NCBI GenBank assembly: GCA_016784965.1
Contig: JADHTQ010000001.1
Coordinates: 124,001-188,000 of the forward strand
Source: Bacteriovoracaceae bacterium
GTDB taxonomy: Bacteria > Bdellovibrionota > Bacteriovoracia > Bacteriovoracales > Bacteriovoracaceae
Length of the DNA stretch: 64,000 nucleotides
Reading direction: 5' to 3'
Numbering within the stretch: position 1 is the stretch's first letter; each line of letters opens with the position of its first letter. Made by a program: the position numbers and the translations under genes. This document shows positions 8,967 through 29,128 of this stretch, piece after piece. The notes beneath the pieces are model-generated. The model searched no databases, was not told the origin of the DNA, and saw nothing but the letters and a program-made list of their open reading frames with translations.

Positions 8967-9914
8967 TTACAGTTTCTCTATAACCCTCAGTTTTGCACTT
9001 CTTGATCTAGAGTTTATTGTAATTTCTTCCTCACTTGGAACCACTGGTTTTTTGGTTAGAATTTTTACGGAGACATTATCTAACTGAGAAATAGATTTGT
9101 ATATCTTTTTTACGATCCGATCTTCTAATGAGTGAAAGCTTATAATGGCCAAACGACCACCACTTTTAAGCAGCGAGATAAGATTTGGAATACTTGAGCT
9201 CAATACATCAAGCTCCGAATTAACTGCTATTCGCAGTGCCTGGAAGCATTTTGTTGACGGATTGGTTCTACCGTAACGAAACTTCTTGGGGTAACAATGA
9301 AAAATGATATTTTCTAAATCAGATGTCGTTAAAATGGGACTACTGCTCCTTTGTTCAACAATCTTTTTGGCAATGCGCCCTGCAAATCTCTCCTCACCGT
9401 ACCGAAAAAAAATCTCAGATAACTCTTCTTCACTGGCCTTAGCGATAATATCAGCGGCCGTTGGAATTGAGTTATCTAAATTATTCATGCGCATATCAAG
9501 GGGAGCTGCTTTTTTAAATGAAAACCCCCTCACATCTTCATCAAAATGATGACTCGAGACACCGAGGTCCATCAAAATACCTTGAAATCCTCCTTGATCC
9601 TTTAAAATAGCATTGTTATTTGATTTTACATGCTCCCAAAATTTAGAAAAATTCATGCTAAGCAGGGTAATGCGCTCAGATAGCCCCTCCTGCTCAATAA
9701 TGTGTTGGCCATTTTTTAGAGCATCAGGATCTTGATCAACTGAAATTACTTGAAAGTTAGAAGACTTTTTTAATAATTCTAGCGAGTGACCACCACCTCC
9801 GAAAGTTAAGTCAGCAAAACAGTAATTTTGATTTGGATCATTGGCATTTTCTGTTAAAAAATCAATACATTCTTTTTTTAACACTGAATAATGAGGTTTA
9901 TACACTTGATTCAA
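8967..9914 (-). CDS. rsmH: 16S rRNA (cytosine(1402)-N(4))-methyltransferase RsmH
   Basis: Methylates C1402 of 16S rRNA in the P site. The SAM site is FADLTFGGGGHSLELL; further family motifs are ILMDLGVSSHHFDE, GFSFKKAAPLDMRM and LAIISFHSLEDRIVK. TTG at 9914 is proposed as the start: it gives about 315 residues beginning NQVYKPHYSVLKKE, matching the usual N terminus, with GGGG upstream. An in-frame ATG at 9971 would add 19 residues and overlap mtnP by 53 bases. Unusually, rsmH is next to mtnP rather than in an mra/mur/fts division cluster. Confidence 0.93.
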   Translation of the reverse strand: MNQVYKPHYSVLKKECIDFLTENANDPNQNYCFADLTFGGGGHSLELLKKSSNFQVISVDQDPDALKNGQHIIEQEGLSERITLLSMNFSKFWEHVKSNNNAILKDQGGFQGILMDLGVSSHHFDEDVRGFSFKKAAPLDMRMNNLDNSIPTAADIIAKASEEELSEIFFRYGEERFAGRIAKKIVEQRSSSPILTTSDLENIIFHCYPKKFRYGRTNPSTKCFQALRIAVNSELDVLSSSIPNLISLLKSGGRLAIISFHSLEDRIVKKIYKSISQLDNVSVKILTKKPVVPSEEEITINSRSRSAKLRVIEKL

Positions 9915-9918
9915 GTGG

Positions 9919-10767
9919 TTACCCCAAAATAACTTCAAGCATTTGTTTATGTTTTGAGGATATTTGGCCAACTTCTGTCATGACCACCTCAGTATTTTCA
10001 AATGGAAACTCAAACCTATTTTCTGCAAGTTTTGCAATCGCACTTGATAACACTTCCTGAACAAGCTCGTTGTTCTTTTTTGCAACTTTTATAATTTCAG
10101 CTGTAGTACAATGCTCCTCTTTCCAACAATCGTAATCTGTCACCATTGCAATTGTGGCATATGCCATTGCGGCCTCTTTGGCCAAAAAAGCTTCTGGAAC
10201 ATTTGTCATCCCAATTACTGAAGCACCAAATGATCGATATATAGCAGACTCAGCTCTTGTAGAAAATTGAGGACCCTCAATACAAATATAGCTTCCGCCC
10301 TTAGTAAACTTGGCATTTACTTTTTCACAAGAGTCTGCCAGAAGATTTTGCAAAGTCGGATCAATGGGATTTGCCACAGAAACATGCCCTACAACCCCAT
10401 TTTCAAAAAAGGATCTATCGCGCTTTCCTTTGGTCCAATCGATAAACTGATCGGGCAGCACAAAGGTGGTTGGGGGCAACTCTTCTTTTAAAGAGCCAAC
10501 TGCAGAAATGGAAATTAGATATCTAACCCCAATTTGTTTTAATGCAAAAATATTGGCCCTATAGTTAATTTCACTGGGGATTAGAGTATGACCTTTACCG
10601 TGCCTAGGAATAAAAAAGAACTTAGTACCTAAAATCTTGGCCTCAATTACTGGTGAGCTGGGTTTACCAAAAGGTGTTGTAACATCATGCTCTTTAATAA
10701 CCTCTAGACCTTTTAGTTGATAAACTCCCGTACCTCCAATAACTCCAATGCAATCATTGTTTGACAC
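9919..10767 (-). CDS. mtnP: S-methyl-5'-thioadenosine phosphorylase
   Basis: 282 residues, GTG start at 10767 after AAGGAG. It cleaves methylthioadenosine to adenine and methylthioribose-1-phosphate. Family landmarks: IGVIGGTGVY (phosphate site), IPRHGKGHTLIPSEINYRAN, SAVGSLKEE, CIEGPQFSTRAES, and MTNVPEAFLAKEAAMAYATI followed by VTDYDCW, which marks MTAP rather than a purine nucleoside phosphorylase. Lies directly downstream of mglA on the same strand. Confidence 0.95.
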   Translation of the reverse strand: MSNNDCIGVIGGTGVYQLKGLEVIKEHDVTTPFGKPSSPVIEAKILGTKFFFIPRHGKGHTLIPSEINYRANIFALKQIGVRYLISISAVGSLKEELPPTTFVLPDQFIDWTKGKRDRSFFENGVVGHVSVANPIDPTLQNLLADSCEKVNAKFTKGGSYICIEGPQFSTRAESAIYRSFGASVIGMTNVPEAFLAKEAAMAYATIAMVTDYDCWKEEHCTTAEIIKVAKKNNELVQEVLSSAIAKLAENRFEFPFENTEVVMTEVGQISSKHKQMLEVILG

Positions 10768-10794
10768 CTTTTTTCTCCTTACATAAATTGTTGG

Positions 10795-11382
10795 CTACAA
10801 TCCACCCTTGAGATTCATTAACACAAACTTACTGACCATTTTTAACGTTTCAAAGACACCCTGTCCGTCTATTGCTACTGATTCAAACTCAGGAGCATCC
10901 CATTTATTTAGTTGTTTTTTTAACTCTGAAACAGAGGTTATATTGGGTAGGTCTCTTTTGTTCCATTGCATGACAAATGGCAACTTATCGATTGTGTGCC
11001 CTAAATTTAAAAGGTTTTTCTCTAGATCATTTAGGCTTTCAATATTTTCATCCATTCTCTCAACTTGAGAATCGGCAACAAAAATTACACCATCTACGCC
11101 TTTTAAGATTAACCTACGACTTGCTTCATAAAATACCTGTCCAGGGACAGTATAAAGGTGAAACCTCGTTTTAAAACCTCGTATTACACCGAGGTCTAAA
11201 GGCAAAAAATCAAAAAACAGAGTCCGCTCATTTTCGGTATTTAAAGAGATGATTTTCCCTTTTGAGTCGCTAGTTGTTTTGTGATAAATATATTGAATAT
11301 TGGTAGTTTTCCCCCCAAGACCTGGGCCATAATACACAATCTTGCAATTTATTTCTTTCGTTCGATAGTTAACAAAAGACAT
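10795..11382 (-). CDS. mglA: MglA-type polarity GTPase
   Basis: 195 residues. The P-loop GPGLGGKTTN (19-28) is the MglA form. Other motifs are TVPGQVFYEASRRLIL (switch II region), GVIFVADSQ and QWNKRDLP (guanine specificity). MglA is a small Ras-like GTPase that sets the leading pole in Myxococcus gliding and the invasive pole in Bdellovibrio (established knowledge). The gene just upstream, 13 bases away, encodes a roadblock-like protein, the fold of the MglA partner MglB. The two sit between recR and mtnP on the same strand. Confidence 0.95.
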   Translation of the reverse strand: MSFVNYRTKEINCKIVYYGPGLGGKTTNIQYIYHKTTSDSKGKIISLNTENERTLFFDFLPLDLGVIRGFKTRFHLYTVPGQVFYEASRRLILKGVDGVIFVADSQVERMDENIESLNDLEKNLLNLGHTIDKLPFVMQWNKRDLPNITSVSELKKQLNKWDAPEFESVAIDGQGVFETLKMVSKFVLMNLKGGL

Positions 11383-18994: not shown

Positions 18995-20269
18995 TTAAAA
19001 TGTAAACAATTTTTTAAGTTTCTGTTCGAGTACTTCATATGAAAAGTGCTGTTTACCCAATTTGTAATTATATTCGGCAATCTCTTTTTGTAGTTTTTTG
19101 TTATGGATAACTTTATCTATTTGAGTTAGCGATTTATCAGTTAATACATTGTCTTCTAACATAACCGCTTTAAAACCCTTGCTCCCAATATCGGGCCAGT
19201 AAACAGGTTTGTAATTATTTACAAAAATTGGTTTTTTGGCCAAAATACATTCAACAAATGCATTTCCAAAGCCCTCATATGTACTAAAATACGTACATGC
19301 TGTTGCGTTGGCATAGGCATCAGACAATGAGTAAATTTTCTTTCCATGATATGATTTTCCTCTTTCACTGAGAATAATATGCCCTCCAAATATCACCTGT
19401 TTTCTCATTTTTCTTTTTTTAATATGATCTATTAGTTCTTTATAGTAGCCCTTTCTTTCATCATCTGCTGCAGTTCCTGTAATAATAAGCTTCAGCCTTT
19501 TATCATCCAAGCGATGAATCATCTCAATTGCTGTCTCTATACCCTTTCTCTTTACAATTCTGGTAATTTGAAAAATTGGAATATCATTTTTACCAACACC
19601 AAGTCGTTCCAATAGGTCTTTGTTATAATCATTTTTTCTAGCATAGGGCTTTGAAAAATCCATAACGTTTGGAACAATTGTTGATTTGATCCCCAGTTTC
19701 TTCTTTAAAATTTTCTTTGAATATTCGTTGATAACTGCATGTTTAACATTTGGAAGATTTAGAGGAAATGTCTCCTTGATAATATTATCAATTTCTTTAT
19801 GTGGAGTTTTATACCTATCTCCTCTTTCCCAGTGAAAATCATGGTCATGAGTTACTACGGGAATTTTGATAATTTCTACTGCCTTTTTTATCCCCATACC
19901 CATGGAAAGATGGCACGGTAGGGCCGATGCGTTTTCTGATAGTAGGGCATCAATTTTGTTTCGCGAGATCCAATAAAAAATCTCTTTGGCTATATGATCA
20001 GAAGTTTGCTCTAAATGGGCAATTAAATTTCTTGGATTTTCCTTGGGGAAAAAGAAGGCCCTATTTTGTTCCCACTCACAGTTGGGAGAAAAAAATGACA
20101 GATGTGTTAACAGAGTTCGATATTTTTCTGGTATTATGTTGTTTTTAAAACTACCTGCCATTATATACACTTTATGACCCATCTTAACTAAAATTTTTAT
20201 CCATTTTTCTGTCTCTAGGGCCACACCATCAACGTCACCGATTCGCCCGATAATAATACCAATATTCAT
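18995..20269 (-). CDS. GT4-type glycosyltransferase
   Basis: 424 residues in a GT-B fold. The N-terminal Rossmann half starts MNIGIIIGRIGDVDGVALETEKW; PVVTHDHDFHWERGDRY and PNVMDF mark the domain junction. The C-terminal half has FQITRIVKRKGIETAIEMI, LIITGTAADD, and the donor-site FSTYEGFGNAFVECILAKKP (E-x7-E of retaining GT4 enzymes). Its first four bases overlap the end of the TIR gene, so it is translationally coupled to it. Donor and acceptor unknown. No other polysaccharide gene is adjacent, which sets it apart from usual glycan clusters and links it to the TIR/RyR operon. Confidence 0.88.
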   Translation of the reverse strand: MNIGIIIGRIGDVDGVALETEKWIKILVKMGHKVYIMAGSFKNNIIPEKYRTLLTHLSFFSPNCEWEQNRAFFFPKENPRNLIAHLEQTSDHIAKEIFYWISRNKIDALLSENASALPCHLSMGMGIKKAVEIIKIPVVTHDHDFHWERGDRYKTPHKEIDNIIKETFPLNLPNVKHAVINEYSKKILKKKLGIKSTIVPNVMDFSKPYARKNDYNKDLLERLGVGKNDIPIFQITRIVKRKGIETAIEMIHRLDDKRLKLIITGTAADDERKGYYKELIDHIKKRKMRKQVIFGGHIILSERGKSYHGKKIYSLSDAYANATACTYFSTYEGFGNAFVECILAKKPIFVNNYKPVYWPDIGSKGFKAVMLEDNVLTDKSLTQIDKVIHNKKLQKEIAEYNYKLGKQHFSYEVLEQKLKKLFTF

Positions 20270-21822
20270 AACGATCCTCCGTAATACTTTTTGAAACTTT
20301 CCAATATAGCTTCTTCCAGCTTAATAATAATATCTAAGTTTATGTTATTAACTGATGAGTAAATATCTGACTTTGCAAAACCTATTTCCAATACTACTTC
20401 GGGAATTGGGGTCAACTTAATTTTTTCAAAATTCTTTTTTTCACTAAAGATTTCTTTAACGTCTTTGCTTAGTTGTCGTTCCAAAAGCCACACCATTTTT
20501 TGAGCTCTTTGACCAGAGTAGCTTATTTTATAATATGGCACTGAAGATCTTTCAACTTTAACCTTAAAAAGAATGGTCGCACCCATTTGCTTTGCCCTAT
20601 TTAAGCGGTCTTGTTGTAAAATAGGCTCATTTAAAGATGTTATTAACTTTAATGATGGACGATGATAACCTTTTAACAACCCTCGCTCCAACATAAGTAG
20701 TAGCTCAAACGCCAAAAGGTCTACCTTGGTTCCTCCTGAGCTATATATAATATCAAATAGAAAAAAATCTCTTAACTTAATATTTCTAGCATTATTGCGA
20801 TTTTTTTTAAATAGACGATAGTTTAGGACTGAATCTATTTTTGAAAGTTGATTATATTCAGGGAAAGTTATCTGCTTCTTATTCATTGCATTTAATAGCT
20901 TTTCTCGCTCTTCATAATAGGTCATAGCACGATTGGTTTTATTAAACAGTAGTCCACTACGTAGTAAAATATTTTCTTTCAACTTTTCTAATTCATAAAG
21001 TGAATTATTTGCTAAATTGCCACCATATGTTGTCGAAGTCATCTGTGGCGGAAGTGCTACTCTGGGTTTAGCCAAAGGTTTAATTACTGGTTTTGGAATA
21101 ATTTTGGCCACTGGTTTTGGAGTAATTTTGGCCACTGGTTTTGCCGGCTTGCTTTCAACATGTTTGACAGCTATGACAGCCGGCTCATCACTCACATTCG
21201 ATGTAAAAAAAGTATATCCCGCCACAATTACAACACATAATATGACAAATACTGCAGCAGCAATGCCATACTTAAGTTGTTTAGACCTAAAAGTTTTAGA
21301 GAATGTTTTTGCTTTCTTTTTGTTTTTGGCCTCAAGTTTTTTAAGCTCTAATTTACTTAATTTAAATGGACGAATTATCGTATTATCACTCACGTCATCT
21401 GAGGATTTGGTTTCTGCTTTTTGTTGTAATACTGTCTTTGCAATGGAAATTAATTCCTGTATATGGTCTTCTAAATTACCAGAATAGGCATTAAGCCAAT
21501 GTGTATTGCATAGATAATACTCCATGGCAGCAGATGGAATAGTTTCATCTATCCTAAATGGTATAATTGTAATCCTGGCATTAACCGCCCGATCAATTTC
21601 TTTTTGTACTTGAACTGATTTATTCGAATTAGCAGAAAAAATAAGTAGCATTAACTTTGAATGGTTTATAGCATCGAGTAGAGATTTAGCGTAGATCTCT
21701 CCTGGTACTATGTCCCGAGGTGCGATCCAACATTTCAAACCTGCACTTTCAAGTTCATTGCATACCTTTTGGGCAAGGCTTACTTCTGCCGATGAATGGC
21801 TGATGAACACAAGATGTTTCAT
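20266..21822 (-). CDS. TIR domain membrane protein with long C-terminal domain
   Basis: 518 residues. A TIR domain (1-130) has VFISHSSAE, CWIAPRDIVPGE, LMLLIFSANSNKS and QVQKEIDRAV; E75 aligns with the catalytic Glu of NAD-cleaving TIR domains. One membrane helix (about 186-206) follows, then a Pro/Lys/Val-rich repeat (220-260) built from tandem PKPVAKI units, and a C-terminal domain of about 250 residues that should lie outside the inner membrane and has no family I recognise. It sits between the RyR/cyclase-like gene (10 bases upstream) and the glycosyltransferase gene (4-base overlap). A role in immunity or signalling is inference. Confidence 0.85.
   Translation of the reverse strand: MKHLVFISHSSAEVSLAQKVCNELESAGLKCWIAPRDIVPGEIYAKSLLDAINHSKLMLLIFSANSNKSVQVQKEIDRAVNARITIIPFRIDETIPSAAMEYYLCNTHWLNAYSGNLEDHIQELISIAKTVLQQKAETKSSDDVSDNTIIRPFKLSKLELKKLEAKNKKKAKTFSKTFRSKQLKYGIAAAVFVILCVVIVAGYTFFTSNVSDEPAVIAVKHVESKPAKPVAKITPKPVAKIIPKPVIKPLAKPRVALPPQMTSTTYGGNLANNSLYELEKLKENILLRSGLLFNKTNRAMTYYEEREKLLNAMNKKQITFPEYNQLSKIDSVLNYRLFKKNRNNARNIKLRDFFLFDIIYSSGGTKVDLLAFELLLMLERGLLKGYHRPSLKLITSLNEPILQQDRLNRAKQMGATILFKVKVERSSVPYYKISYSGQRAQKMVWLLERQLSKDVKEIFSEKKNFEKIKLTPIPEVVLEIGFAKSDIYSSVNNINLDIIIKLEEAILESFKKYYGGSL
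21087..21144. repeat. 24-base tandem repeat, about 2.4 copies, within the TIR gene
   Basis: Units 21087-21110 and 21111-21134 differ at one or two bases and a third partial copy follows. They encode the Pro-Lys-Pro-Val-Ala-Lys linker just after the membrane helix, so they form a spacer of adjustable length. Confidence 0.8.
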
Positions 21823-21832
21823 GGTATCTTAA

Positions 21833-23743
21833 CTATGTCCTCCTCAAGCAATACATAGGAAATGAACCAAATTTTTTAGCAAGAGATATTTTTCCAACAT
21901 AATCACAGCGAAAGGAGTTTATATCCATTAACACTGATAATGCTGCAAATTCTCTTCCGACAAAGATTTCTCCTGGAGGCGTAATAGGCTCAATCCTTGC
22001 TGCTGTACAAATGTTGCTACCGCTGTAGCTGGTTCTCCCTGTTAGTTTATTGGTTGTTTTTATAACCGGCCCGGCATGCAATGCTATTCGTAGTTTCATC
22101 GGGATGTGAAGTCCTAGATCACTCCAATTTATATTGTTGATCCGCTCAGAAAGTGATAGTGCAAAAAGCCCTGCATCTTCAATTTTATGAAACACTAAAA
22201 ATAAAGCATCCCCCCAAGTATTTTTTGATGCAAGCTCTAGATTAAATTCATCTAATAACTCTATTACAACACTCGACAATTTATCTTCAAAAACAACAAT
22301 CTCATTATCCTTGAGCTTGGCATAGTTTGATGCATCAGCAAACAAAATGGCCTTAAGATCATAATTGGCCGTTACCGATTGTTTTAAGGAGTCACATGAC
22401 CACTCTTTGTTCTTTGTGACGATAGATACATCATTATTATCGATTTTAAAAATAACTAGCTCAGTATCTAACTGCTGGGACTTTATAGTAGCAATCCCAT
22501 AATTGACAAATTTATAGTATTCATAATCAACATCAAAATTTGATGATTCCATTGTTTTAATCGCTACCACTTGAGAAAAATCTTTTAAGTTACTTTCAAA
22601 ATCATCTATAAGACTTTTCTCATTATTGAAATTCAGATAACAAATGAGATCTCTATCCATTTTATCAAGTACTTTACCCAAGCGTTTAAATATCTTGGCA
22701 TCAACCTTATCCTTGGATAGTTTACCTTCAAAAATTACAACTACTGGTACTTTAATACTATCAAGTAATTTTGCTTTATCTTTACCTGAAATTTTCGAGA
22801 TTTTAAGTATTTGTTTTAAATTACTAACTGTAGTCGCCAAGTCACCAATGCGCTTGCCCGAGTTGCAAAAAGCTTGATGGTACCAATTTATTGCATCTTC
22901 AAACTGATTCATGACCAAAGATGCCTCTCCCATTGTGGCGTAAGTCCAATATAAATTATCCTTTGTTTCACCTTTTAAGGACTCTTCACATTTTTTAAAA
23001 ACTTGGCCAGCAACTTCAAATGATGCTTTTTTTTCACCAAGATGAATTAGTGTCCAAGCAACGTTAATACCTGTCCAAGTTCCTCTTTTTTTCTCGTAGG
23101 CCATGAGATAATATTTGTGAGCTTTCTTGAGATGCTCATCGCTTGGGTTGCTACTATTTTGTGACTTCTTCCAGAGTTCTTTGTGGGTTTTGGCCAGTAA
23201 GCCAAGTGTCCTTTCGCTATCGTCACCTAATTCAAATAAAGACGTAAGATAATCATTTGCCCTCTCGGTCATTCCTAGTCGGGTTAGTGCCATGGCCTTT
23301 AATTGTCGGGGACGGGTAGCCTCGGGAAAATTGCGACTGATTTCATCAAATAAATCATGGGCCATAAGTGGCTTTCCAGTTCGCAACAATTCTTCTCCGG
23401 TAGCCAGAAATTCATCAAACTTTTTATAGCTTCTTATATCATGACCTTTACTATCACTTTTTGGAGGAGTTATGTCATACCCTAATGCTTTTATTAACCT
23501 GATGGCACCCATAGCACTCATACGATCATATTCTTGTTCGTCATTTGATAGTTGTTCATATGGCACCAGGCAAGGATGCTTTTTCTTAGGGTCATCACGT
23601 TTGCTGCCAAAAGACCATCCTTCACTCATACGATTTATGGACCAAATTTCATGGGTATTTTTGGCGAGCAATTCTGTTAACTCTTCTAAGTAATATTCAA
23701 GTTGAATATTTGAAACATCGATTGGTTTTGGTTTGTAGGACAT
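21833..23743 (-). CDS. RyR domain - TPR - nucleotide-cyclase-like multidomain protein
   Basis: 636 residues, no signal or membrane helix. An RyR domain (about 4-92) has HEIWSINRMSEGWSFG, LVPYEQLSNDEQEYDR and IKALGYDI. A TPR-like helical region runs 105-310. A degenerate alpha/beta domain (about 330-450, starting VPVVVIFEGKL) follows. A class III cyclase-like domain (464-630) keeps both metal Asp (D470, D512) and the transition-state Arg (R583), but S572 replaces the base-reading Asp and C579 the transition-state Asn. It may have an altered product or be a binding domain. RyR domains in bacteria are predicted nucleotide sensors in conflict systems (established predictions). First gene of an operon with TIR and glycosyltransferase genes. 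Confidence 0.82.
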   Translation of the reverse strand: MSYKPKPIDVSNIQLEYYLEELTELLAKNTHEIWSINRMSEGWSFGSKRDDPKKKHPCLVPYEQLSNDEQEYDRMSAMGAIRLIKALGYDITPPKSDSKGHDIRSYKKFDEFLATGEELLRTGKPLMAHDLFDEISRNFPEATRPRQLKAMALTRLGMTERANDYLTSLFELGDDSERTLGLLAKTHKELWKKSQNSSNPSDEHLKKAHKYYLMAYEKKRGTWTGINVAWTLIHLGEKKASFEVAGQVFKKCEESLKGETKDNLYWTYATMGEASLVMNQFEDAINWYHQAFCNSGKRIGDLATTVSNLKQILKISKISGKDKAKLLDSIKVPVVVIFEGKLSKDKVDAKIFKRLGKVLDKMDRDLICYLNFNNEKSLIDDFESNLKDFSQVVAIKTMESSNFDVDYEYYKFVNYGIATIKSQQLDTELVIFKIDNNDVSIVTKNKEWSCDSLKQSVTANYDLKAILFADASNYAKLKDNEIVVFEDKLSSVVIELLDEFNLELASKNTWGDALFLVFHKIEDAGLFALSLSERINNINWSDLGLHIPMKLRIALHAGPVIKTTNKLTGRTSYSGSNICTAARIEPITPPGEIFVGREFAALSVLMDINSFRCDYVGKISLAKKFGSFPMYCLRRT

Positions 23744-23886: not shown

Positions 23887-24633
23887 ATGTCAAGAGCAGG
23901 AAATATTCTCAGATCATTTATGCTTGCTACTTTTATAGTTGGGGTAAGCTACATCGGTCTCACTGCAACCGGCACCTCAGAGACCATGGCCTTTTTAAGA
24001 AGAATTTGTATTCTTCTTGGTGGAAATATTACTGGTGGTGGCTACATTCAATTTTTTACATATTTTGCTTTTTTTTGGTCACTATTTGATATTTTAAGTA
24101 AACTCGAAAAAATTAGAAAAGAGCAAAGGGCGTTCAAGTATAAGCTCTTACCAACTGATGAAAGACATGTACTTATGCCTAAAGACTTAATGCAGATCAA
24201 ACTAAAAATTGATGAATATGAAAAAAAGGGAAATTATCTACTAAATGCCGTAATTAAAAAGGCATGTATTAAATTTCGTACTTCAAATTCCATTTCTGAG
24301 ATAATTAATATCATTAATATTCAAACAGACATTAATAAAGAAAAATCTGAAAGTGGACAATCAAATATTCGTTATCTCACCTGGGCTATCCCTTCCATCG
24401 GATTTATTGGTACAGTGCTGGGCATTTCACAAGCGCTACAAGTGGCAAACAGTGGTGACATGAATAAAATAACAGCTACACTTGGTGTGGCATTTGACAC
24501 CACCTTAGTTGCTCTGTGCTTGAGTATTATTGTAATGTGGTTTTTTCATAGGCTACAAGAAGAAACTGATACACTACACGCAAAAATTAAAGAATATGTC
24601 ATTGAACATTTAGTTAATAGAATTGAAGTTTAA
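23887..24633 (+). CDS. MotA/TolQ/ExbB-family proton channel protein
   Basis: 248 residues. Two N-terminal membrane helices (about 10-28 and 50-70), a cytoplasmic loop of about 100 residues, then the diagnostic C-terminal helix pair: YLTWAIPSIGFIGTVLGISQAL and TLGVAFDTTLVALCLSIIVMWFF, equivalent to TolQ/ExbB helices with the GTV-GI and Thr-Thr pore positions. Such proteins form pentamers around a dimeric MotB/ExbD/TolR-like stem and convert ion flow into rotation. The partner is the vWA gene seven bases downstream. Divergent from the RyR/TIR operon. Confidence 0.85.
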   Translation: MSRAGNILRSFMLATFIVGVSYIGLTATGTSETMAFLRRICILLGGNITGGGYIQFFTYFAFFWSLFDILSKLEKIRKEQRAFKYKLLPTDERHVLMPKDLMQIKLKIDEYEKKGNYLLNAVIKKACIKFRTSNSISEIINIINIQTDINKEKSESGQSNIRYLTWAIPSIGFIGTVLGISQALQVANSGDMNKITATLGVAFDTTLVALCLSIIVMWFFHRLQEETDTLHAKIKEYVIEHLVNRIEV

Positions 24634-24639
24634 AAATAG

Positions 24640-25572
24640 ATGTCGAAGATAAAAAGAGAAAGTAATGTATTCAGTATCGCGTTTTTAGACCTGCTATCAG
24701 GTGCCCTTGGAGCTGTTATAATTTTATATATTGCTGTACCCAAGGCATCGATTAAAACAGAACACTCAGACAAAAGCAAAATAGAAATCATCATAAAAGA
24801 AAAAAAAGAGGTCACCAGGCAATTAAATAAATGTAGAAGTAAAAATACGACCTATGAAGAACTTGTGAAAAAAAACCATGATGATTCCGAAAAACAAATT
24901 ACAGCACTAAAAGAGAAAATTTCAGCACTAAAAAAAGAAAAAATTAAAACACCTCCCCCTCCTCCACCTCCTCCTCCAAAGATTAGAAAGAAAGCAAAAG
25001 ACAGTGGGTTTGCTGCCCAACCACTGGATGTGGGATTTCAGTTTAAGGGCAAAAAGATTGTTTTTGTAATTGATGTATCAGGTAGTATGATGCAAGAAGA
25101 TCGCATCGGACAAGTTAAAGCTGGTCTTAAAATGCTCATTACCTCCATGTCAAAAGAATTTATGGTTAATGTCGTTTCATTTCCAAATCGCAATAAGACT
25201 CCTTTTAAAAATCTGTGGCATGCCCCTAGATTTACGACCGCTGATAACAAAAAAGAGGTCTATAAGTTTTTAAATGGTCTATCAGCTTATGGAACAACTC
25301 CAACACGAGAAGCTCTAAAACATGTCTTTGAAAAGTACTCCGATATTACAGACATCGTTTTGCTATCTGATGGCGCACCGACCACTTTTAATTCGCAAAA
25401 GCGCGATGACATCTATAAACTTCTAAGCGATTTAGCAAGCCAAAATGTGTTTGATATTCAGGTCAATACAATTGGAGTCGGTTCCGATTTTTTAAAAGAT
25501 ATAAATAATTTGAAATACATTTTCCTATCAAAGCTAGCAGCAGACCATAATGGCTTTTTTGTAGGTTTTTGA
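24640..25572 (+). CDS. MotB/ExbD-like stem protein carrying a von Willebrand A domain
   Basis: 310 residues. A single N-terminal helix, FLDLLSGALGAVIILYI (15-31), has an Asp (D17) at the position of the ion-carrying Asp of MotB/ExbD. A coiled-coil stretch (50-103), a run of nine prolines (105-113), then a vWA domain (about 135-305) with the MIDAS motif DVSGS (145-149) and a later TTPTRE Thr and LLSDGAP Asp, so the metal site looks complete. A peptidoglycan-binding OmpA or ExbD domain is absent; the vWA domain takes its place. Function is unknown. The gene is coupled to the channel gene. Confidence 0.85.
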   Translation: MSKIKRESNVFSIAFLDLLSGALGAVIILYIAVPKASIKTEHSDKSKIEIIIKEKKEVTRQLNKCRSKNTTYEELVKKNHDDSEKQITALKEKISALKKEKIKTPPPPPPPPPKIRKKAKDSGFAAQPLDVGFQFKGKKIVFVIDVSGSMMQEDRIGQVKAGLKMLITSMSKEFMVNVVSFPNRNKTPFKNLWHAPRFTTADNKKEVYKFLNGLSAYGTTPTREALKHVFEKYSDITDIVLLSDGAPTTFNSQKRDDIYKLLSDLASQNVFDIQVNTIGVGSDFLKDINNLKYIFLSKLAADHNGFFVGF

Positions 25573-27732: not shown

Positions 27733-28278
27733 ATGAAACTACTTATAGCTAGTGTTACACTGCTTGTCTCTTTTTTTTGTTTTAGTCAGCAAAGAGGTCA
27801 AGATAGTGAACGTCAAATGCCTCGCAATGGCTTAAGGCAGAACAATAGTAACAGGCAAAATCAACAAAGAGCTTTTAGAGGTAGAGGTCAAAGAAGACAG
27901 CAGAGAGATTTTAGAAGAGGGGGGCAACAACCAAGACGGGGGTTTGACGAAAGCAGAGGACAAGCTAATCGGAAAAACCCCGAAACGATGCAACTTATGA
28001 AAGAGGTTCGGGAGTTAGAAAATAAATCTAAACAACTGGCCCAAAATTACAAAGATAGTAACTCTATTGAAGATAAGAAAAAAATTTCTGAGTCACTTCG
28101 GAGCAATTTACAAGAAATATTTGAAAAAAAATTGAGCTTTGGTGAAAAAAAGCTAGATGATGTAGCCAAAAAGCTAGAGCAACTAAAAGATTCCCTAGCT
28201 AGTAGAAAAAAGAATGCTCAGCAAATAATTAAGCAACGTTTGGACGAATTACTTACAAGTGACGGCTATGCACAGTAA
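27733..28278 (+). CDS. Secreted Arg/Gln-rich protein with C-terminal coiled coil
   Basis: 181 residues. Signal peptide (MKLLIASVTLLVSFFCFS), then about 70 residues of low complexity dominated by Arg, Gln, Gly and Asn (GRGQRRQQRDFRRGGQQ), then a helical, coiled-coil-prone region (90-175). A highly basic exported segment could bind nucleic acid or anionic polymers such as lipopolysaccharide; this is inference. Its end overlaps the start of the adenylate cyclase gene, so translation is coupled. Confidence 0.65.
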   Translation: MKLLIASVTLLVSFFCFSQQRGQDSERQMPRNGLRQNNSNRQNQQRAFRGRGQRRQQRDFRRGGQQPRRGFDESRGQANRKNPETMQLMKEVRELENKSKQLAQNYKDSNSIEDKKKISESLRSNLQEIFEKKLSFGEKKLDDVAKKLEQLKDSLASRKKNAQQIIKQRLDELLTSDGYAQ

Positions 28279-29128
28279 AACTTTAACAATACTATTTGCT
28301 GATATTCAAGGTTATACAAAAAGAACATCGAGGCAAAGCAGAGAGCAAAATCAAAATTTCATAACTGAAATCAACGATTTTATCAAAAAGTATACAAAAG
28401 AATTTTCAGGCATATTCGTAAAAAATTTGGGAGATGGATTTCTTCTCACCTTCGAATCACCAACAAATGCAGTAAATTGTGGCAAGAGAATCCAAAAAGA
28501 AATTAAAACTAGAAATGCGAATATTTTAAAAAAAGAAAATTATGTACAGTTTAGAATTGGAATAAGTACTGGTGAAGTTAGTCTTGATGAAAATGGAGAT
28601 GTCTTTGGTGATGCAGTCAACATCGCATCAAGAATAGAAACTTTTGCTGAACCCAATGAAGTATTTATTTCAGAAAGTACTTATTTGGCCATGAACAAAG
28701 TTGAGGTGTACACCCAAGATTTGGGACCTCAGCAGTTCAAAAATGTTCTAACAGAGGTACGGGTATATAAAGTCCTCACTGAGCATGAACAAAGCAGCAA
28801 TGGAAAAATGCAAGAAAAGATTAAAGCAAAAGGGTTGCATGTTCTACTGCTAGTCTTTTTTTCCTTGATTGTAATTGGAGCACCTATCTCATTTTATTAC
28901 TTTTTTAAATCTAAACCTCAGTCAAAAGCAGATCCTGTGCACAAATGGAATTCGAAAATATTCAGGCAAATTCTTCAGCTTGAGCGAAAACTTGACCGAT
29001 TTAAAGAAGCCGAACGACATCTGTTTGGTCCAAGAAATGTACAATTATCCTGGGATGATTCGCTTTGGGAAAAATCTACAAGGCAAATAGAAAATGACAT
29101 TCGCGTGTTGGAGTCAATTCTAGAATAG
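28268..29128 (+). CDS. Membrane-tethered class III adenylate cyclase
   Basis: 286 residues from ATG 28268 (a GTG three codons earlier is possible). N-terminal class III cyclase domain (5-170): metal Asp D12 (FADIQGY) and D56 (KNLGDGF), base-reading K52 and D111 (GDVFGD), transition-state N118 and R122 (NIASR). The Lys/Asp pair points to ATP rather than GTP. One membrane helix (about 190-212) follows and about 70 residues with coiled-coil character lie beyond it, probably periplasmic. This is reversed from the common sensor-then-cyclase order. A stand-alone cyclic-nucleotide-binding protein is encoded at 35586-36059. Confidence 0.88.
   Translation: MHSKTLTILFADIQGYTKRTSRQSREQNQNFITEINDFIKKYTKEFSGIFVKNLGDGFLLTFESPTNAVNCGKRIQKEIKTRNANILKKENYVQFRIGISTGEVSLDENGDVFGDAVNIASRIETFAEPNEVFISESTYLAMNKVEVYTQDLGPQQFKNVLTEVRVYKVLTEHEQSSNGKMQEKIKAKGLHVLLLVFFSLIVIGAPISFYYFFKSKPQSKADPVHKWNSKIFRQILQLERKLDRFKEAERHLFGPRNVQLSWDDSLWEKSTRQIENDIRVLESILE

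Follow-up and report, generated by a model that had tools for sequence, protein, structure and literature searches.

A TolQ-like channel and a pore-helix stem with a vWA head form a predicted two-gene ion-driven motor in Bacteriovoracaceae

What could a membrane channel of the MotA/TolQ/ExbB family move when the stem protein encoded beside it ends in a vWA domain? The question is raised by two genes that lie in tandem on the + strand of a 64,000-nucleotide stretch of DNA (the window) from a bacterium of the family Bacteriovoracaceae, related to Bdellovibrio. The original prediction had placed the pair at 23887-25572; both open reading frames were found there, at 23887-24633 and 24640-25572, and its observation as a whole was confirmed. 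The product of the two genes is very likely an ion-driven membrane motor of the TolQ type, with a moving stem that bears a periplasmic metal-binding vWA head and no cell-wall anchor. The features on which the analysis rests are the following.

23887..24633, + strand: channel gene, 248 aa, MotA/TolQ/ExbB family (PF01618, E 3.5e-14; model pLDDT 90.7; TolQ Z 15.4 over 201 residues)
24412..24414, + strand: T176, invariant TM3 threonine (GFIGT), candidate lumen residue (alignments)
24499..24504, + strand: T205-T206, invariant TM4 threonines (AFDTTL), candidate lumen residues (alignments)
24640..25572, + strand: stem gene, 310 aa, with pore helix, coiled coil, linker and vWA
24670..24744, + strand: transpore helix (residues 11-35), in which D17 occupies 24688-24690 and GALGAVIIL..PK is invariant (mean column identity 0.88; alignments)
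24775..24942, + strand: coiled coil of variable sequence and length, spanning about residues 46-101 (seen in the linked model as helices 297-319 and 321-352)
24952..24978, + strand: nine-proline linker P105-P113, not conserved in relatives
25021..25569, + strand: vWA head, residues 128-310, with MIDAS D145/S147/S149/T220/D244 and a conserved GFFxGF C terminus (PF13768, 2.9e-12; fold Z 19.9)

According to the list of open reading frames, 6 bases separate the channel gene from the stem gene. The upstream neighbour is divergent and the downstream neighbour convergent, indicating that the pair is a two-gene unit. Among the open reading frames and domains of the window, no ExbD, TolR or MotB gene adjoins the pair, and no TolA or TonB partner was seen at it. 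The nearby RyR and TIR genes were dismissed as possible partners, being on the opposite strand and outside the families that recur beside the pair. There (20266-23743, - strand), a TIR-domain protein with a hydrophobic TM-like segment adjoins a RyR, TPR-S and guanylate-cyclase-like protein, an arrangement that resembles a nucleotide-signalling conflict or defence module, with weak TIR matches only in PADLOC. At 28259-29128 (+ strand) lies the gene of a second protein with a cyclase domain, which is followed by a TM-like segment; its PADLOC matches are weak and PycC-type.

A search for the stem-plus-vWA architecture, proposed as a check of the original prediction, retrieved homologous stems from 57 of 129 class genomes searched, the window's included. 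Extended to the phylum, it gave 57 of 368 genomes, all in the window's family, with one stem match per genome (split fragments aside); the named relatives are Bacteriovoracaceae and Halobacteriovorax. The channel gene lies directly upstream of the stem in all 29 homologous loci checked (split over two open reading frames in one of them), and the channel stop and stem start codons often overlap. Homologous stems in 57 genomes and this constant gene order exclude a chance association. No relatives were found in viral contigs and no close stem relative on plasmids; the single plasmid match, a YfbK-like vWA protein that lacks a pore helix, was rejected. Clustering of neighbours within 10 kb showed none common to all Bacteriovoracaceae loci, those that recur tracking local synteny. 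No conserved neighbour hints at the head's partner in this family.

The channel matches PF01618 with 53.1 bits, against a curated cut-off of 22.9. A fold search of a model linking both proteins returned vWA domains only, so the channel was folded alone (pLDDT 90.7, pTM 0.83). Its helices are TM1 (about residues 4-28), TM2 (48-72), TM3 (159-187) and TM4 (192-220), and the cytoplasmic helices are long. The best fold match is TolQ (8vlw; Z 15.4, rmsd 2.9, 201 aligned residues), followed by ExbB (Z about 13.9), ZorA (Z 11.4) and MotA/PomA (Z about 10); for helical proteins, values below about 13 may be generic, and the TolQ match and the best ExbB match exceed this level. Most of these alignments begin at about residue 36, indicating that TolQ has no counterpart of the first helix. 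In the PDB, the channel profile finds a sequence match only in PomA (E 5e-4). Thus, the family assignment in the description "ExbB/MotA-like channel" stands, but the core fold is nearer to TolQ/ExbB than to MotA, with one additional N-terminal helix.

Within the channel, conservation peaks in TM3 and TM4 (mean column identity 0.86 and 0.78, versus 0.37 for TM1), and the threonines of these two helices are invariant in channel alignments of both Bacteriovoracaceae and Bacteroidota. By analogy with TolQ and ExbB, we presume that T176 lies in the channel lumen. The same genome contains ten PF01618 matches. Several of these other channels are encoded next to MotB or ExbD partners that bear the typical pore-Asp motifs (LWMVTFSDLVTLLL, WLISYADIMTLL, DITPLIDVVFLLL and NVTPLVDVVMVLL); the window's channel is paired with the vWA stem alone, whose FSIAFLDLLSGALG aligns at the Asp with those motifs. 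In a channel tree with long branches, used solely to place the subfamily relative to the genome's other channels, the window's subfamily sits apart from them. Elsewhere in the genome, a 587-aa channel-family protein with a long tail has a ZorA-like layout (L114, 1189-2949; contig C52 near 54853).

The single helix with an Asp (D17) described in the original prediction is borne out by an alignment of the window's stem with 26 relatives at 42-51% identity: L16, D17, G21-L29, P34 and K35 are invariant in all 27 sequences. Within the stem, the pore helix stands out as best conserved (mean column identity 0.88), compared with 0.24 for the coil and linker (residues 36-128) and 0.65 for the vWA head. 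Its Asp lies near the cytoplasmic end, as in the MotB and ExbD partners of the same genome, and the basic N-terminal tail suggests, by the positive-inside rule, an N-in, C-out topology. The nine-proline linker, P105-P113, is present but is not a defining part, as it is kept in none of the 26 aligned relatives and is peculiar to this genome.

A single hydrophobic N-terminal segment could also be a signal peptide or plain anchor, the two genes being merely co-transcribed. A cleaved signal, which would have spoken against the original prediction, is unlikely given the invariant Asp inside the hydrophobic core and the invariant PK behind it. The helix is moreover near-invariant across phyla, even where the head domain is exchanged, and is persistently paired with one channel subfamily, making this explanation highly improbable. 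Conservation on all faces of the helix and the conserved TM3/TM4 threonines fit pore insertion. The helix is probably enclosed by protein rather than being a plain lipid anchor, because it is conserved on every side and TM3 and TM4 are conserved as well. The channel might also anchor the stem as a passive tether or scaffold, with no ion-driven movement. One relative without the Asp is compatible with such a role; D17, however, is invariant in the 27 Bacteriovoracaceae stems, its counterpart is kept in all but one of the aligned Bacteroidota stems, and the conservation of the channel is highest in TM3 and TM4, so we consider a tether improbable.

To model both proteins together, the two genes were read as one chain in a 1:1 model from a block alignment, with the two in-frame stops as Gln (table 6), a reading that is a modelling device only. 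A mixed channel/stem alignment (A3) was misaligned and was dropped. In the linked model (pTM 0.50), the channel and vWA head are confident and the pore helix has a pLDDT of about 45-58; with no confident position for this helix, the model was rejected as proof of its placement in the pore.

The claim that a vWA head replaces an OmpA or ExbD domain was upheld by both domain and fold searches. In the Pfam search, vWA models alone match the stem (PF13768, PF13519 and PF00092; 2.9e-12 to 4.2e-9, over residues 139-291), and an ExbD or OmpA-like periplasmic domain is absent. The head model aligns along its whole length with vWA domains of solved structure, e.g. that of inter-alpha-inhibitor heavy chain 1 (Z 19.9, rmsd 2.1, 158 aligned residues). 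The MIDAS had been called complete-looking on the basis of D145, S147 and S149; these residues are as described, T220 and D244 complete the set, and all five (DxSxS, Thr and Asp) are invariant in 27 of 27 aligned stems.

The explanation that we favor, with reasonable though not full confidence, is a proton- (or sodium-) driven inner-membrane motor of the 5:2 type that grips a protein partner through its vWA heads. Five TolQ-like channel copies would surround two stem copies, whose helices would be inserted in the channel pore. The stem is probably a homodimer, since there is one vWA gene per channel here. Binding of a proton or sodium ion at D17 would rotate or displace the stem dimer, a movement that would be relayed through the coiled coil and flexible linker to the pair of vWA heads. 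On the presumed periplasmic side, the heads would hold a protein partner, rather than peptidoglycan, through the MIDAS metal. The original prediction of an ion-driven motor that pulls or rotates a vWA module is partly supported: its parts (channel, pore-Asp stem and MIDAS head) stand by sequence and fold, and its mechanism is inferred as the best explanation. This reading is based on the observed genes, domains, folds, conservation and co-occurrence. Against it stand the low pLDDT (45-58) of the pore helix, the relative without the Asp and the lack of a conserved neighbour hinting at a ligand.

Relatives in Bacteroidota share the channel subfamily and pore helix (FLDLLSGALGAVIIL..PK) of the pair, have longer coiled coils, and carry two types of head: a vWA domain (L076-L087) or a DVDLxV-motif domain without a vWA match (L088, L089 and L091-L095), for which one case gave a sub-threshold DUF2135 hint. 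The system is rare in this phylum, as only 6 of 395 sampled genomes match, three of them weakly. Seven stem loci (L080-L084, L087 and L095) lack an adjoining channel; in five of them the same channel type occurs elsewhere in the genome (E below 1e-80), and the metagenome-assembled genomes of L081 and L084 contain generic channels only. The pore Asp is kept in all aligned Bacteroidota stems except L080, a Chitinophagales vWA stem (9617-10906) with Ile at this position, whose genome still holds a subfamily channel; this exception is unexplained.

Within 10 kb of the Bacteroidota loci, recurring neighbours are PP2C (14 loci), Ser/Thr kinases (11), FHA and trypsin-like proteins (9) and zinc-ribbon proteins (8), the domain names having been checked on members of one locus. 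A kinase, PP2C, FHA protein, channel and pore-helix stem are likewise encoded in one stretch of the Rhizobium leguminosarum plasmid pRlBT01d (L116, 967-7440), where the channel has 31% identity and the stem combines the pore Asp with a DVDLxV-type head (there DIDLGV); PLSDB holds no second plasmid copy of this arrangement. These neighbours would suit an envelope sensor rather than a force generator, in which the ion-conducting channel and the stem inform the cytoplasm of ligand binding by the periplasmic vWA head, in some lineages via kinase, PP2C and FHA proteins. In Bacteriovoracaceae, however, no kinase, PP2C or FHA family is a recurrent neighbour of the pair within 10 kb, and the invariant pore Asp and Thr favor energized cycling over passive sensing; we regard a sensor as rather unlikely, if the most plausible alternative to the ion-driven motor. 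On a plasmid of Anabaena cylindrica, pANACY.03 (L118, 3228-7418), a MotA/ExbB-like channel with a long C-terminal tail and two small pore-helix stems directly follow type III-B CRISPR Cmr genes and a hypothetical 510-aa protein, possibly a CRISPR-linked Zorya-like motor.

For the motor, the exchangeable heads and the kinase, PP2C and FHA neighbours suggest a modular, possibly phospho-regulated device. Tentatively, the pair could be the simplest version of a hitherto undescribed class of modular ion-driven motors, with a constant TolQ-like channel and pore helix, exchangeable periplasmic heads (vWA or DVDLxV) and kinase/PP2C/FHA control in other phyla.

How does the pair relate to known systems? 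It shares with TolQR/ExbBD the channel core fold (Z 15.4 to TolQ) and a stem helix with Asp, but its channel has one more N-terminal helix, its stem lacks the ExbD/TolR periplasmic domain and a TolA/TonB partner was not seen. As in MotAB/PomAB, there is a pore Asp and a predicted periplasmic stem, and PomA matches the channel profile (E 5e-4); the stem, however, lacks an OmpA-type peptidoglycan domain and the fold match is lower (Z about 10). With Zorya ZorAB the pair would share the nature of a 5:2 motor outside motility and nutrient uptake, and its channel fold matches ZorA (Z 11.4), but the 248-aa channel lacks the long ZorA tail and has only a weak and partial ZorA match in PADLOC, and there is neither an OmpA head nor an adjoining ZorC or ZorD.

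The idea of a motor with a vWA head is not new. A 2025 paper in Mol Biol Evol (PMC12204202) predicts a "TPH-vWA" family of vWA proteins encoded beside tolQ-like genes without tolR, whose pore helix has a conserved Asp that an AF3 model puts inside a Thr ring. By this published description, the window's pair is similar in that its vWA gene adjoins a tolQ-like gene with no tolR, exbD or motB, and in that its stem has a TolR/ExbD-like pore helix with a conserved Asp and no SHLS motif. TPH-vWA channels, for which the taxa named are mostly Proteobacteria and Verrucomicrobia, predominantly (not universally) have two different vWA genes, whereas the pair has one and belongs to Bacteriovoracaceae, its relatives being in Bacteroidota. 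Bacteriovorax, kinases and other heads go unmentioned in the text of PMC12204202, and among open PubMed Central papers this was the only relevant one for a version from predatory bacteria or with kinase, PP2C or FHA. The single-stem variant and its head-swapped, kinase-linked relatives therefore appear to be undescribed in that literature.

If the motor reading is true, the few known 5:2 motors are joined by one whose vWA stem comes from a single gene and is probably homodimeric, and its clean two-gene form in cultured genera such as Halobacteriovorax allows a test of motors that drive a protein-binding head. If confirmed, the exchange of heads and the phospho-signalling neighbours would mean that one motor core is reused for several envelope jobs under cytoplasmic control.
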